Source: Bradyrhizobium sp. AZCC 2176
Lineage (GTDB): Bacteria; Pseudomonadota; Alphaproteobacteria; Rhizobiales; Xanthobacteraceae
Length of the DNA: 64,000 nucleotides
Direction: 5' to 3'
Assembly (NCBI RefSeq): GCF_036924645.1
Contig: NZ_JAZHRX010000001.1
Coordinates: 5,359,501-5,423,500 of the forward strand
The position numbers and the translations under genes were made by a program. Positions 8,697 through 12,940 of the stretch are shown here, in pieces. Below the pieces are notes generated by a model. The model was not told the origin of the DNA and did not search any database. It saw nothing but the letters and a program-made list of their open reading frames with translations. Positions within the stretch are counted from its first letter, which is position 1. Each line of letters starts with the position of its first letter.

Positions 8697-9632
8697 CTAC
8701 CGCCACCTTCTGTGCAGCCACAGCCACTGGTCCGGATATTCCCGCACCCAGCCTTCGACCACTGACGTCACCGCCTGCATCGTGCCCTGGATGTCGATCT
8801 GGCCTGAGGCGTCGCGCACCGGCTTGACCTCTTCGGACAATTCCGCGCGAAAACGGTGGTTGGGCAGGCGGACGATGCGGACGCCGTGCACGGGGCATTC
8901 GACCTGCCGCAACAGCCGCGCCAATGTCGGATTGGCCTTGGTCTTGCGGCCGAAGAACGTCACCTCGACGCCGTTGCCCATGTACTGATCGACCAGCATC
9001 GCGACATGCTGGCCGCGCTGCAGCGCCTCGGCGAGCTTGAGCGGCGCGTCGCGGCCGGCCGGCACCAGCGTGCCCATCTTGACGGCGCGGATCCGCTCGA
9101 TGGCGCGGTCGACGGCCTCGATGTTGGGCCGGCGGAACAGGATCGCGCAATCGAGGCCGTGCGCGACGGCGCCGAGCGCCGGGATTTCCCAATTGCCGAG
9201 ATGGCTCGCGAAGATGATCGCCGGTTTGCCGTCGTCGCGCAAAGAATCGAAGATTTCCTTGGTCCGCGGGGGGAACTCGATGCGGCTCGGCTTCTCCGGA
9301 TGATCGAGGTCGTAGTCCCAGATGTGATCGAGATGGGCGAACTCGGCGCCGATGCGGCCGAGATTGTCCCACACGCCGGACAGAATGGTCTCGATCTCTT
9401 CCGCCGATTTCTCGGGGAAGGCGGCCTTGAGATTCTCGCGCCCGATGCGGTCCTCGCGCAGCCGCCGGCCAATGAAGCGGGTGGCGCGGCCGAAGAAATT
9501 GGCGGTTTTGTCCGGATCGAAATAGCGCGTGGTGCGCAGCAAGGCGATCGTCAGCGCGCCGACGGCCAATTCCGCCACCGGCTTGGCGGCGTCGCGCAGG
9601 CGCGCCTTGGTACGTAGGAGCAGGCGGTTCAT
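8697..9632 (-). CDS. lpxXL: Lipid A very-long-chain acyltransferase LpxXL
   Basis: This 311-residue protein of the LpxL/HtrB lysophospholipid acyltransferase family has the HX4E catalytic motif in SHLGNWE (about residue 145) and the partner segment LFRRPNIEAVDRAIERIR. It acts at the inner membrane, adding an acyl chain to Kdo2-lipid A. As the last gene of the acpXL operon it is expected to transfer the C26-C30 (omega-1)-hydroxy acyl chain from AcpXL, as established for rhizobial LpxXL. It starts 20 bases after fabF1XL. The functional assignment rests mainly on operon position. Confidence 0.88.
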   Translation of the reverse strand: MNRLLLRTKARLRDAAKPVAELAVGALTIALLRTTRYFDPDKTANFFGRATRFIGRRLREDRIGRENLKAAFPEKSAEEIETILSGVWDNLGRIGAEFAHLDHIWDYDLDHPEKPSRIEFPPRTKEIFDSLRDDGKPAIIFASHLGNWEIPALGAVAHGLDCAILFRRPNIEAVDRAIERIRAVKMGTLVPAGRDAPLKLAEALQRGQHVAMLVDQYMGNGVEVTFFGRKTKANPTLARLLRQVECPVHGVRIVRLPNHRFRAELSEEVKPVRDASGQIDIQGTMQAVTSVVEGWVREYPDQWLWLHRRWR

Positions 9633-9652: not shown

Positions 9653-10930
9653 CTACACCGGTTCGCGCGTCAGGATTAGCGAAGCATTTTGCCCGCCGAA
9701 ACCGAACGAATTCGACATCACGGCGGTGACCTTGGCATCGCGCGCGGTGTTGCCGACGACGTCGAACAGGATTGCCGGATCCGGAACCTCGTAGTTGATG
9801 GTCGGCGGAATCCGCTGATGCTCCAGCGTCAAGAGCGAGAACACCGCTTCGACCGCGCCGGCCGCCGAGATCGTATGCCCGACCATCGACTTGTTCGACG
9901 ACACCGGGATCTTCGGCAGATGCTCGCCGAACACGACGGCTGTGGTGTTGTACTCCATCTTATCGTTTTCCGGCGTCGCGGTGCCGTGCGCGTTGATGTG
10001 GTCGATCTGCTCCGGCTCGAGGCCGGCATCCGCCAGCGTCTTGCGCATGCAGCCGATGATCGGCTTGCCGTCCGGGCTGGAGCGGGTGCGGTGGAACGAG
10101 TCCGTCAGCTCGCCGCAGCCGGCGACCACGCCGAGGATTTTCGCGCCACGGGCGATAGCTGACTCATAGCTTTCCAGCACCATCGCGCCGGCGCCTTCCG
10201 CCATCACGAAACCGTCACGGTTCTTCGAGAACGGCTTTGAGGCGGCCTGCGGCGGATCGTTCTGCGTCGACAGCGCCGACAAGAGCGAGAACCGCACCAG
10301 GGCTTCCGTGTTGACCGAGCCGTCGGTCGCCACGCACAGCGCAGCATCCGCATCGCCGCGGCGGATCGCCTCGACGCCGAGCTGGATCGCGGTCGCGCCG
10401 GAGGCGCAGGCGGTGGAGAGCGAGATCGGCGAGCCCTTGGTGCCGAAGGCTTCGGCCAGATGGCTCGCCACCGAACCGAACATGAAGCGATGATGATATT
10501 TTGCGTACCGGCCGCCACCGCTGATGCGCAGCATGTCGTCATAGCCGAATTCGGTCTTGCCGATCGCGCGCCCGAGTTCGAGCCGTTGCGGCCATTCGAC
10601 CTCGACCGGCGCTACCGCAAGAAACAGCGGTCCGGGAAAATCGGCCTTGGCGCCGATCGCGGCCTGTTCGAGCGCTTCTTCGGTGGCCATTTCAGCGAGC
10701 CGCTCGGTCAGTCCCGTCGAGGTGACGGGATCGACGGTGACGAAATCGACCGTGCCCGCCATGGTCGACTTCAAGCCGTCGATCGGAAAGCGCGTCACCG
10801 TCTTGATGCCTGATACACCCGCAGTCAGCTTGCGCCAATTGTCCTGCTTGCCGGCGCCGAGCGACGTCACCACGCCCATGCCGGTGACGACGACGATCGG
10901 CCTGCCGAATTTATCGCGTGGTGCTGACAT
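9653..10930 (-). CDS. fabF1XL: Beta-ketoacyl-ACP synthase FabF1XL (catalytic)
   Basis: This 425-residue KAS II-type condensing enzyme has a complete active site: nucleophile Cys in STACASGA (about residue 180), first His in INAHGTATPEND (about 315), and Lys plus second His in SNKSMVGH (about 350). It should elongate AcpXL-bound acyl chains with malonyl-ACP during synthesis of the very-long-chain lipid A fatty acid. GGGGGAACC precedes its ATG. It follows fabF2XL by 35 bases; that gene encodes a related protein that has lost these residues. Confidence 0.92.
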   Translation of the reverse strand: MSAPRDKFGRPIVVVTGMGVVTSLGAGKQDNWRKLTAGVSGIKTVTRFPIDGLKSTMAGTVDFVTVDPVTSTGLTERLAEMATEEALEQAAIGAKADFPGPLFLAVAPVEVEWPQRLELGRAIGKTEFGYDDMLRISGGGRYAKYHHRFMFGSVASHLAEAFGTKGSPISLSTACASGATAIQLGVEAIRRGDADAALCVATDGSVNTEALVRFSLLSALSTQNDPPQAASKPFSKNRDGFVMAEGAGAMVLESYESAIARGAKILGVVAGCGELTDSFHRTRSSPDGKPIIGCMRKTLADAGLEPEQIDHINAHGTATPENDKMEYNTTAVVFGEHLPKIPVSSNKSMVGHTISAAGAVEAVFSLLTLEHQRIPPTINYEVPDPAILFDVVGNTARDAKVTAVMSNSFGFGGQNASLILTREPV

Positions 10931-10965
10931 GGTTCCCCCGATGTTGCGCCGTGACTGAATGCGCT

Positions 10966-12168
10966 CTACTTGACGGCCTCGACCAGGGCCATGCCTTCGC
11001 CTTGCCAGTGACCGGCCCCCACCACCACAATCTGGTTCGGGGCATCAGTCTTTTCAACCTCGAGCCCGGTCGGATCGTTGGGCGGAAACAGCGCGCCGCG
11101 CGAGAGCGAGAGCGCGGCCAGCGCCAGCCCCAGCGGAAACTGGGTTTCCAGCGTGTGGCCGAACATCGTTCCGGTGGCGCGCACCGCAAATCCCGGATGC
11201 TGGCGCAAGAACGCCTTTTCTTCCGAGGTCACCGGCTCGGCGCCGGTTGCGCCCGTGATCAGATTACCGCTGTCGCCGGCGACGCCGAGCTTCGGCCACA
11301 GCGCTTCCAGCGATCTGGTCACCGCGCCCGGCTGCTTGCGCTGGGCGAGGTCGGCCACCACCTTGGTCAGTTTTGCATACGGCTTGGCGCCGCGCGCTTC
11401 GGCATGCTCGCGCGATTCCAGCACCAGGAAACAGCCGGCGGAGCCGAGAGCAAAGCCGCTTCCAGCTTCGCGCTGCCAGACGGGGGCATACTTCTCTTTC
11501 AGATTGAAATCGCCGAATTCATAGAGGACCAGGAGGTCGGAGCGCTCGCCATTGTGGGCGGCGCCGACCAGCGCGATGTCGCTCTGCCCGGACTCGATAC
11601 GCGCGAGTGCGATCCGCGCCGCGTCGATGGAGGCGGCTTCCTCGCCCATGAAGGTGCGCGACGTTCCGCACACGCCGTGGACAATGGCAATGTTGCCGGC
11701 GAGCAGGTTGGAGAGCTGAGCCAGAAACAGCGTCGGCCGCAGATCGTTCATCAGCCGTTCGTTGAGAAAGGCGGGGCTCGAATTGCCCTTGGCGTCGGCG
11801 GTCATGATGGCGAGGTCGACCGCGAGGTCGCGCTCGCCGCCGCCGGCGGCGATAATCATGTCCGTCCGGCCGAGAATTTCCTTGTTGCCCTTGATGCCGG
11901 CCGAATCCAGCGCCAGCCCCGCGGCATAGGTGCCGATGCGCTGCCACGCCTCCATCTGGCGCTGATCGCCCTTTTTCGGGATCTGGGCGTCGAAGGTAAC
12001 CGGCGCCAGCGGATGCACGATGTAGGGCGCAAAGCGTTTGTCGTCGACGTTGATCTTCTTCTCGTTCAGCGCATCCCAATGCGCGTCCAGCCCTTCGCCG
12101 AGCGAGGAGACGATGCCGATGCCGGTGATCCAGACTTCCTTGGCGGCCGGGGACTTCTGATCAGTCAT
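10966..12168 (-). CDS. fabF2XL: FabF2XL, ketosynthase-fold protein without catalytic residues
   Basis: This 400-residue thiolase-fold protein occupies the fabF2XL position of the rhizobial acpXL cluster. Aligned to FabF without gaps through AGNIAIVHGVCGTS, the nucleophile Cys position is Glu (residue 177, in MGEEAAS). The first active-site His region reads GATGAEP instead of AHGTST, and the Lys of TKSMTGH is Gly (TGTMFGH). Only the second His remains. The one nearby Cys (167) aligns with a non-catalytic position. This resembles chain-length factors of type II polyketide synthases, which pair with an active ketosynthase. A heterodimer with FabF1XL is my inference. Its start overlaps the fabZXL stop by eight bases, suggesting translational coupling. 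Confidence 0.85.
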   Translation of the reverse strand: MTDQKSPAAKEVWITGIGIVSSLGEGLDAHWDALNEKKINVDDKRFAPYIVHPLAPVTFDAQIPKKGDQRQMEAWQRIGTYAAGLALDSAGIKGNKEILGRTDMIIAAGGGERDLAVDLAIMTADAKGNSSPAFLNERLMNDLRPTLFLAQLSNLLAGNIAIVHGVCGTSRTFMGEEAASIDAARIALARIESGQSDIALVGAAHNGERSDLLVLYEFGDFNLKEKYAPVWQREAGSGFALGSAGCFLVLESREHAEARGAKPYAKLTKVVADLAQRKQPGAVTRSLEALWPKLGVAGDSGNLITGATGAEPVTSEEKAFLRQHPGFAVRATGTMFGHTLETQFPLGLALAALSLSRGALFPPNDPTGLEVEKTDAPNQIVVVGAGHWQGEGMALVEAVK

Positions 12169-12634
12169 GCGTTATCGCCTGCAGTGGGAAGCCGATCTTG
12201 TTGGCCAACGCGTCCATGTGCACGCGCAAGGCCGGATCGGGGAAGGGGGCCAGGCCGAAGGTGAGCTCGGCGCTGCACTTCAATTCCTTGCCAACGCGCG
12301 CCTTTACCTTGGTGACGGCAAAACCGGAACCTTCATGCTCGAGCTTCGCCTCGATCGTCAGCAACTGGCCGGGACTGACGAAACCCCGCATCTTGGCTTC
12401 CTTCACGATGGCCAGGAACGGCATGCGCTCGAACTTCAGGGCGCCGAGTATCAGCCAGCCGGAACTTTGCGCCATCGCTTCGGTCAGCAGTACGCCGGGC
12501 ATGATCGGGAAACCGGGAAAATGCCCTTCGAAGATGGTATGCGACGCCGGAACCTGGGCCTCGACCGTGATCTTCCTTTCGTCGAGATTGAGGTCGACGA
12601 TGCGGTCGATCAGTAGGAAGTAATCAAGCTGCAT
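12161..12634 (-). CDS. fabZXL: 3-hydroxyacyl-ACP dehydratase FabZXL
   Basis: This 157-residue hot-dog fold dehydratase has the FabZ/FabA signature: catalytic His in GHFPGFPIMPGVL and acidic residue in TEAMAQ (about residues 33-50). It should dehydrate 3-hydroxyacyl-AcpXL in each elongation cycle of very-long-chain fatty acid synthesis. It begins nine bases after acpXL and overlaps fabF2XL by eight bases, so it is firmly within the operon. Confidence 0.9.
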   Translation of the reverse strand: MQLDYFLLIDRIVDLNLDERKITVEAQVPASHTIFEGHFPGFPIMPGVLLTEAMAQSSGWLILGALKFERMPFLAIVKEAKMRGFVSPGQLLTIEAKLEHEGSGFAVTKVKARVGKELKCSAELTFGLAPFPDPALRVHMDALANKIGFPLQAITHD

Positions 12635-12643
12635 GGCCGGCGA

Positions 12644-12940
12644 CTAGGCGCCCGGCGCTGCATTCTTGGCGGCGACCAGTTCGTCGATGCGATCGGCGAG
12701 ATTCTGCAGCACGAAATACTGCTCTGTCGTGGCCTTGCCGTCGTTGACCTCCTGGGTCCATTTTTCGAGCGGCATCTTGATCCCGAACGCCTTGTCGATG
12801 GCAAAGGCGATGTCGAGGAAGTCCAGGCTGTCGATTCCCAGATCGTCGATGGCGTGGCTCTCCGGCTTGATCGTGTCGCGCGGAATGTCGCAGGTCTCCG
12901 CGATAATGTTGGCGATCTGATCGAATGTGGAAGACATCAT
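12644..12940 (-). CDS. acpXL: Acyl carrier protein AcpXL
   Basis: This 98-residue acyl carrier protein has the phosphopantetheine attachment Ser in [10 protein letters not shown] (about residue 38) and is longer than the usual 78-residue AcpP. That, plus the C-terminal helix rich in Ala, Asp and Glu, fits AcpXL, the dedicated carrier for the C28-type lipid A acyl chain. Two adjacent ATG codons (12940 and 12937) follow AAAGGC; either could be used. It is the first gene of the five-gene minus-strand operon, whose promoter should lie in 12941-13140. Confidence 0.93.

Follow-up and report, generated by a model that had tools for sequence, protein, structure and literature searches.

FabF2XL, a ketosynthase homologue without a catalytic centre, is probably the partner subunit of FabF1XL in a rhizobial acpXL cluster

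Why do the very-long-chain fatty acids (VLCFA) of lipid A in rhizobia and their relatives stop at C26-C30? Annotating two like ketosynthases in the cluster leaves this stop unexplained, and the locus described here raises the question of what the less typical of the two contributes. In the window, by which we mean the whole stretch of 64,000 nucleotides that was analysed, the cluster is read on the minus strand. It comprises acpXL (12644..12940), encoding a special acyl carrier protein of 98 amino acids (NF005079, 175.4 bits, cut-off 83); fabZXL (12161..12634), encoding a 3-hydroxyacyl-ACP dehydratase-like protein of 157 amino acids whose NF000582 score of 97.3 bits falls below the cut-off of 113; fabF2XL (10966..12168, 400 amino acids), which overlaps fabZXL by eight bases; fabF1XL (9653..10930, 425 amino acids); and lpxXL (8697..9632), the cluster's lipid A acyltransferase gene (NF005120, 457.1 bits, cut-off 273), which directly follows fabF1XL, adh2XL being absent between them. 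FabF1XL is assigned to NCBIfam NF005076 (758.3 bits against a cut-off of 629) and FabF2XL to NF005084 (PRK06519; 620.9 bits against 320). The original prediction took FabF2XL for a dead ketosynthase that, paired with FabF1XL, helps to set product length. We consider it likely that the two form a heterodimer of the kind known from ketosynthases and chain-length factors (KS-CLF), which elongates acyl-AcpXL to the C26-C30 lipid A acid and to which FabF2XL lends the AcpXL dock and a tunnel wall. In the literature searched, we found no earlier proposal of FabF1XL and FabF2XL as a KS-CLF-like pair.

An important part of this reading is that FabF2XL carries Glu177 (codon 11638..11640, minus strand) at the position of the ketosynthase Cys and has lost the first His and the Lys, and the alignments bear this out. 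The stretch from AGNIAIV to GEE had been said to fit the FabF active-site region without gaps; it does so in four of the five listed single-sequence alignments and in all five listed profile alignments, with the second Glu of GEE on Cys163 of FabF, which by numbering is Glu177. The best-scoring single-sequence row (4jrh) aligned the stretch otherwise, with a gap, and placed Cys167 of HGVCG on the nucleophile. We rejected Cys167 as a conserved nucleophile, since just 26 of 207 relatives have a Cys there.

The losses of Cys, first His and Lys recur in every sequence sampled, and the claim of a dead subunit is supported in all of them. Across 207 FabF2XL frames (206 distinct), the nucleophile position is Glu in 206, Asp in one and Cys in none, and neither did a Cys occur there in any of the 354 FabF2XL database proteins among the matches listed (the window's own included). 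While 80 of these frames were found via DNA patterns that contain SRTFMGEE and are therefore biased towards the motif, the 126 found via a profile gave Glu in 125 and Asp in one. None of the 207 frames has a Lys at residue 333 or 334, or a His at residue 306 or 307. In a joint alignment in E. coli FabF numbering with 74 diverse FabF2XL rows, 73 carry Glu at position 163 and the other Asp, position 303 is Gly, Ala or Ser in all 74, and the four commonest residues at position 335 (Gly, Ala, Ser, Thr) make up 69. The second His stands apart: it is kept in the window (His338), yet no more than 179 of 207 relatives share it (one of the other 28 is a gap), and His occupies position 340 in 62 of the 74 joint rows. 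FabF2XL thus lacks the Cys-His-Lys-His set of an active KAS II (FabF), and the NF005084 name 'beta-ketoacyl-ACP synthase' implies a condensing activity that its sequence does not support.

What else could a ketosynthase fold with a Glu in place of its Cys be doing? Both KSQ domains and FabF C163Q have an acidic or amide residue in place of the Cys, and with Glu177 almost invariant one could picture FabF2XL as a KSQ-like malonyl-AcpXL decarboxylase that makes starter units, Glu standing for Gln. We regard this as very improbable. Such a decarboxylase needs its His pair, but, leaving gaps out of account, none of the 207 frames has an equivalent of His303 or Lys335, and 28 lack the second His (one through a gap), so that the KSQ combination of Gln with a retained His pair is not what FabF2XL shows; it would also leave unexplained why FabF1XL has lost conservation in the very segment discussed below. 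That FabF2XL is a decaying paralogue without a function of its own is hardly credible at all. Its catalytic residues are lost, and with a mean identity of 0.51 (FabF1XL: 0.62) it diverges more than its neighbour, but Arg171 and Glu176 are invariant in 207 of 207 frames, which argues against decay, and Arg113, Asp114 and Arg144-Pro145-Thr146 are invariant too. In addition, loss of fabF2XL abolishes VLCFA in Agrobacterium fabrum (PMC11901934, considered below), and mutants were reportedly unobtainable in Bradyrhizobium ORS278 (PMC5613085).

FabF1XL, on the other hand, keeps all four catalytic residues, both in the window (Cys175, codon 10406..10408, minus strand; His315; Lys347; His352) and among its relatives. 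The Cys is present in 204 of 205 frames, the remaining one being unreadable, and in the joint alignment in 73 of 74 rows (one X), where H303, K335 and H340 are each found in 74 of 74. Of 397 genomes in the order, 112 have FabF2XL and exactly these have FabF1XL, and FabF1XL lies next downstream on the same strand for 205 of the 207 FabF2XL frames. One of the two unadjacent FabF2XL genes sits at a contig end (L220); the other, a true exception (L198), has unrelated genes downstream and comes from a fragmented genome (G333), in which a second FabF1XL (L309) lies on another contig. There is also a lone FabF1XL with an intact active site on plasmid pRPC1 of Rhizobium sp. BG4, with no FabF2XL within 7 kb. 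Two pairs are present at each of six loci, where every FabF2XL has a FabF1XL to itself (three of these loci have a shortened second FabF2XL), and on one plasmid the pair occurs alone. FabF2XL could instead be a homodimeric or free scaffold, for example for AcpXL with FabZXL or LpxXL, that is not paired with FabF1XL; its surfaces are strongly conserved, and loci L198 and L266 show that each gene is able to stand apart. We nevertheless find this unlikely: in most cases the two genes travel and are duplicated together, once without acpXL and fabZXL nearby, and a FabF1XL homodimer would depend on the very surface whose conservation FabF1XL has lost and FabF2XL has kept.

This surface includes the segment that matches FabF 129-139, and its reciprocal conservation may be counted as new evidence for a heterodimer. 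In FabF2XL it corresponds to the near-invariant residues 143-153 (LRPTLFLAQLS; 11710..11742, minus strand), the proposed AcpXL dock and partner acyl-pocket wall, and in FabF1XL to the hypervariable residues 141-151 (10478..10510, minus strand). Few stretches of FabF2XL are more conserved than this segment, and few of FabF1XL more variable: 0.5% of the alignment windows in FabF2XL equal it in conservation, versus 99% in FabF1XL. The FabF2XL rank is not blind because the segment was picked after its invariance had been noticed in 14 FabF2XL rows, the FabF1XL variability and the controls not being known beforehand. By the same measure the next helix (FabF 140-150) gives 0.3% versus 84%. In the joint alignment with controls, the values for the 129-139 segment are 0.005 in FabF2XL, 0.010 in polyketide CLF, 0.087 in homodimeric FabF, 0.709 in polyketide KS and 0.969 in FabF1XL (the CLF and KS controls have 12 rows each, from actinomycete plasmids). 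Polyketide CLF and KS therefore share the split of FabF2XL and FabF1XL, and homodimeric FabF does not. Column by column, the difference FabF1XL minus FabF2XL follows KS minus CLF with a Spearman coefficient of 0.20 over 361 columns, and 1 of 331 circular shifts was as high.

According to PMC7138838, the segment is in FabF partly a carrier-protein dock and is lent mainly to the other subunit's site; the carrier contacts include Arg68, Ile129, Ser130, Pro131 and Phe132, and the uncrosslinked monomer provides most of them. The assignment of single contact residues to one monomer or the other is ours. At positions 68 and 129-132 FabF2XL is near-invariant (Arg in 73, Leu in 73, Arg in 74, Pro in 74 and Thr in 74 of 74 rows) and FabF1XL is variable. 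Some other docking residues of FabF are changed: position 69 of FabF2XL is Gln or Ala, position 127 mostly Asn, Thr or Ser, and position 128 Asp or Glu in 59 of 74 rows, position 206 of FabF1XL is Ser in 73 of 74, and the alignment at FabF position 65 is uncertain. AcpXL docking would accordingly differ in detail.

Given that the catalytic centre is lost in all FabF2XL copies sampled, yet the surfaces that help a partner are kept, FabF1XL and FabF2XL are probably one mixed pair. The heterodimer of the original prediction is well supported by indirect evidence: the two genes occur in the same genomes, lie side by side and are duplicated together, and their reciprocal conservation split is KS/CLF-like and not FabF-like. 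We infer a physical heterodimer, docking of AcpXL on FabF2XL, and a FabF2XL wall that helps to set chain length. FabF1XL would perform all the chemistry in cis, with its Cys-His-Lys-His set and gating residues; FabF2XL would perform none and would contribute in trans the functions for which a ketosynthase dimer ordinarily relies on its second subunit. Its surface would dock AcpXL to give access to the FabF1XL active site, and at the dimer interface it would form the far wall of the acyl pocket.

The putative setting of chain length by FabF2XL is plausible, though only compatible with the data. The heterodimer could also be real with FabF2XL as an activity or carrier-selectivity subunit only, docking AcpXL and stabilising FabF1XL while length is determined by the FabF1XL pocket, LpxXL selectivity or FabZXL, and to this we give somewhat less than an even chance. 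In PMC11901934, an insertion in A. fabrum fabF2XL abolished all C28/C30 acids with no shift in length, and the fabF2XL gene alone partly restored VLCFA. With VLCFA abolished rather than shortened, an essential subunit is no worse an explanation than a ruler; fabF1XL is located downstream of the insertion in the same operon, so polarity may contribute to what was described. The highly conserved stretch of FabF2XL partly matches the FabF carrier-docking patch, as a dock alone would have it, but it extends through FabF 133-138, and Phe133 of FabF is a wall of the partner's pocket. Moreover, Gly is the commonest FabF2XL residue (62 of 74 rows) at the position of FabF Ile108, an acyl-pocket gating residue (PMC7138838), as a longer tunnel would want.

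The predicted model of FabF2XL has a mean pLDDT of 93.2, and its lowest ten-residue block is 141-150 (56), as might be expected of a part that needs a partner. Mean-field direct coupling analysis of 204 distinct paired rows (effective number 61) gave inter-protein contacts that were not separable from noise, and hence no usable contact map.

A separate observation concerns covariation on the interface strand. FabF2XL Lys174 (mostly Met) coincides with FabF1XL Cys172 (mostly Ser or Thr) in six of six adjacent pairs with Lys, and Cys172 occurs in 1 of 199 adjacent pairs without it; on trees this amounts to one to three independent contrasts, so the covariation is unable to reach significance and may serve as a lead only. 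Genome G333 breaks the rule by position, with Lys174 in the lone FabF2XL (L198), Ser in the lone FabF1XL (L309), and Met with Cys in the adjacent pair (L184). Its partners may be swapped, or the assembly may mix organisms.

If FabF1XL and FabF2XL do form a KS-CLF-like pair, this would offer a concrete and testable ruler or dock, explain the joint retention of both genes, and correct the product name that NF005084 gives FabF2XL. The reciprocal-conservation test could furthermore be applied to other neighbouring ketosynthase genes from sequence alone.

How, then, does the pair compare with known systems? The polyketide KS/CLF pairs of actinorhodin (1tqy) and ishigamide (6kxd) likewise have adjacent genes for one subunit with and one without Cys and His, and in polyketide CLF/KS as in FabF2XL/FabF1XL the dead subunit conserves the partner-facing segment tightly and the live one loosely. 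Both dead subunits have an acidic residue just before the lost Cys (Glu or Asp in all 12 CLF rows, Glu in all 74 FabF2XL rows), whereas the live groups have Ala or Gly. FabF2XL thus combines a ketosynthase fold lacking the catalytic Cys, a gene beside an active ketosynthase and split conservation, as type II CLFs do, but not their Gln at the Cys position: there it has Glu in 73 and Asp in one of 74 rows, while the CLF rows have Gln in ten, His in one and Glu in one. Lys at 335 is present in 12 of 12 CLF rows and absent from FabF2XL. Unlike in the polyketide systems, the dead gene comes first, and the pathway yields a lipid A acid that is fully reduced.

The best tree joins CLF with polyketide KS (82/91) and FabF2XL with FabF1XL (77/88), although a clade of FabF2XL with CLF is not rejected by the AU test (p-AU 0.325). 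Profile comparisons of FabF2XL score 124.9 against FabF1XL, 116.0 against CLF and 115.3 against polyketide KS, values so nearly equal that similarity cannot decide CLF descent. A structure search with the FabF2XL model did not favour CLF over FabF: the top matches listed were tied, and the actinorhodin CLF chain (1tqy_B) was rank 12 in Foldseek. Homodimeric FabF (KAS II) differs in that a single chain carries both the catalytic residues and a partner-facing segment that is conserved. ApeO/ApeC of aryl polyene synthesis likewise belong to a Gram-negative lipid pathway, and PMC8253772 reports ApeC as a chain length factor complexed with ApeO. Their cluster and product are other ones, however, the gene for ApeC is distant from the majority of the core genes in its cluster, and the likeness is one by description. 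Overall, we give an even chance to the view that FabF2XL is a CLF whose origin from ketosynthases was independent of that of the polyketide CLFs but led to an equal division of labour. The live subunit would have retained all that its own site requires and shed the partner surface, and the dead one would have kept only that surface, docking AcpXL and walling the C26-C30 tunnel, with the Arg171/Glu176/Glu177 belt on the interface strand as a lock against homodimers.

FabF2XL was originally predicted to be a dead ketosynthase and a possible chain-length factor in a heterodimer with FabF1XL, and the loss of its catalytic residues was borne out. C163, H303 and K335 (E. coli FabF numbering) are missing from FabF2XL and present in FabF1XL, while the second catalytic His is retained in the window protein and in 179 of 207 frames. 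The predicted placement of Glu177, the second Glu of SRTFMGEE, at the nucleophile position was reproduced in 4/5 single-sequence and 5/5 profile alignments shown; the remaining single-sequence alignment used a gap to put Cys167 there, a residue carried by just 26/207 relatives and so not a conserved nucleophile. The frames (207 FabF2XL and 205 FabF1XL, of which 206 and 204 are distinct) came from 200 loci plus the window, counted once. Residue 177 is Glu in 206 FabF2XL frames and Asp in one, Arg171 and Glu176 are invariant, and the FabF1XL nucleophile is Cys in 204/205 frames, the last being unreadable. Because the search patterns that found 80 of the loci contain the SRTFMGEE motif, these loci are biased; the motif-independent subset of 126 FabF2XL frames found by profile has 125 Glu and one Asp. 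Glu also occupies this position in 354/354 FabF2XL proteins (the window's own counted) among the matches listed in three database searches. Homologues with an intact catalytic set, the main objection foreseen, were sought, and none was found in the 207 frames or the 354 listed proteins.

The genes lie on the minus strand in a cluster of acpXL (12644-12940), fabZXL (12161-12634), fabF2XL (10966-12168; NCBIfam NF005084), fabF1XL (9653-10930; NCBIfam NF005076) and lpxXL (8697-9632). The very-long-chain fatty acid cluster reported for Bradyrhizobium ORS278 has the same gene set, adhA2XL being absent there too (PMC5613085). FabF1XL has a strongly conserved motif of its own at residues 108-117 (window 10580-10609), P108-x-E110-x-[ED]-W113-x-x-R116, where FabF has GSGIGG. 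The FabF2XL family exceeded the cut-off in 111/397 genomes of the order, 15/289 of the class and 35/398 of the phylum, and all 35 positives of the phylum sample belong to the class. Both families are present in the same 112/397 order genomes, the two genome lists being identical, and FabF1XL is the next gene downstream on the same strand for 205/207 FabF2XL.

One of the two remaining FabF2XL genes stops at a contig end (locus L220); the other (L198:4192-5484), followed by unrelated genes, is a true exception to pairing. Its fragmented genome, G333, holds this lone FabF2XL, a lone FabF1XL on a separate contig (L309:465-2240) and an adjacent pair (L184), and the partners may have been rearranged. 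The lone FabF2XL has Lys174, and the lone FabF1XL has Ser before TAC. Six loci carry two pairs each (L177, L183, L186, L171, L172, L178), one pair type combining Lys174 in FabF2XL with Cys172 in FabF1XL, both at FabF position 160. At L186 the two FabF2XL copies appear partly homogenised, unlike the two of FabF1XL. At L171:13445-14296, L172:1444-2619 and L178:2588-3574 the second FabF2XL has a shortened or diverged C-terminal half, with the GEE motif and the active site of the matching FabF1XL still intact. A diverged pair (L264:4004-6525; 65% and 72% identical) on plasmid NZ_CP100605 of Bradyrhizobium sp. Ash2021 has no recognisable acpXL, fabZXL or lpxXL within the 9.2 kb examined; its neighbours include genes for a SAM-dependent methyltransferase and a response regulator. 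Plasmid pRPC1 of Rhizobium sp. BG4 encodes a FabF1XL relative that stands alone, its active site intact (L266:7001-8281) and no FabF2XL within 7 kb, which speaks against a strict unit; it comes after HlyD- and MFS-like efflux genes.

Pfam matches FabF1XL with both ketosynthase halves and FabF2XL with the N-terminal half only. Because the FabF2XL model (105-row alignment, mean pLDDT 93.2) has a complete ketosynthase fold, the absent C-terminal match reflects divergence, not loss. In the model the helix at the nucleophile starts at Glu177, and the lowest-pLDDT ten-residue block is 141-150 (56). The closest solved structures, among the matches listed, were FabF chains tied with an ishigamide KS-CLF (ketosynthase and chain-length factor) entry, and Foldseek placed the actinorhodin CLF at rank 12. 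In a 49-row tree a single branch separates each of the five groups from all other rows. The tree pairs FabF2XL with FabF1XL (77/88) and CLF with polyketide KS (82/91), both without firm support, and a topology that unites FabF2XL and CLF is not rejected (p-AU 0.325). We file FabF2XL as having a proposed CLF-like way of working, not as a CLF family member.

In a ketosynthase homodimer each chain serves its own active site and lends surfaces to that of the other. If FabF1XL and FabF2XL form a pair, FabF1XL may therefore shed the lent surfaces and FabF2XL must retain them, and the expected split was observed. The segment matching FabF 129-139, which was picked for its invariance in the first 14 FabF2XL rows and for Phe133, which we take to line the partner subunit's pocket, and was thus not blind for FabF2XL, has a mean entropy of 0.29 bits in FabF2XL, where 0.5% of windows reach that conservation, against 2.95 bits in FabF1XL, where 99% do. 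The FabF1XL variability, the controls and the published docking list were obtained only after this choice. The following helix has 0.28 bits in FabF2XL versus 1.87 in FabF1XL, and the catalytic motifs reverse (first His, 1.65 versus 0.27; FGFGG region, 1.29 versus 0.17).

The joint alignment comprised 74 FabF2XL, 74 FabF1XL, 30 FabF (the top scorers from 117 genomes that had a match), 12 KS and 12 CLF rows. The conservation rank of the segment is 0.005 in FabF2XL, 0.010 in CLF, 0.087 in FabF, 0.709 in KS and 0.969 in FabF1XL, the KS/CLF control being limited to 12 pairs, all from actinomycete plasmids, and the FabF control to those 30 top-scoring rows; in homodimeric FabF a single chain has to serve both functions. 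A plasmid of Streptomyces sp. NBC_01003 carries three consecutive ketosynthase genes (L262:2198-7204), by eye one without Cys at the nucleophile and one a fusion of two ketosynthase units. Over 361 columns, the FabF1XL-minus-FabF2XL and KS-minus-CLF differences correlate (Spearman 0.20; 1/331 circular shifts as high). Of the 25 columns in which conservation leans furthest toward the dead subunit, 7 are common to both systems (FabF 66, 68, 70, 104, 110, 131, 132), as are 5 of those leaning toward the live subunit (202, 207, 271, 307, 309); column 79 runs in opposite directions.

Most likely, AcpXL would dock onto FabF2XL and hand its chain to FabF1XL Cys175, the chain most likely extending into a pocket whose wall FabF2XL supplies. 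The FabF residues touching the carrier protein are 65, 68, 69, 270; 127, 128, 206; and 129-132, 205, with contacts mostly from the non-crosslinked monomer (PMC7138838). FabF2XL lacks basic side chains at 127 and 128, and position 206 is Ser in FabF1XL, substitutions that weigh against the docking reading. Where FabF has Ile108, the commonest residue of FabF2XL is Gly (62/74), and in FabF1XL, where the alignment is uncertain, Ile is not among the commonest residues; such residues would suit a longer tunnel. A fabF2XL insertion in A. fabrum wholly removed C28 and C30 acids, with partial restoration by fabF2XL alone (PMC11901934), and a fabF2XL mutant of ORS278 was unobtainable (PMC5613085). Both results fit an essential subunit and are not proof of a ruler.

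Within the titles, abstract openings and passages of the open-licence PMC literature, we found no dead-subunit or KS-CLF proposal for FabF2XL/FabF1XL, and papers naming FabF2XL there regard it as an elongation enzyme or merely list it. Aryl polyene synthesis is already known to involve a chain length factor (PMC8253772), and polyunsaturated fatty acid synthases to contain KS-CLF didomains. Polyketide CLFs carry an acidic residue directly before the lost Cys (E in 7 and D in 5 of 12), as FabF2XL does (E in 74/74), whereas the live groups, unlike both dead subunits, have Ala or Gly directly before Cys.
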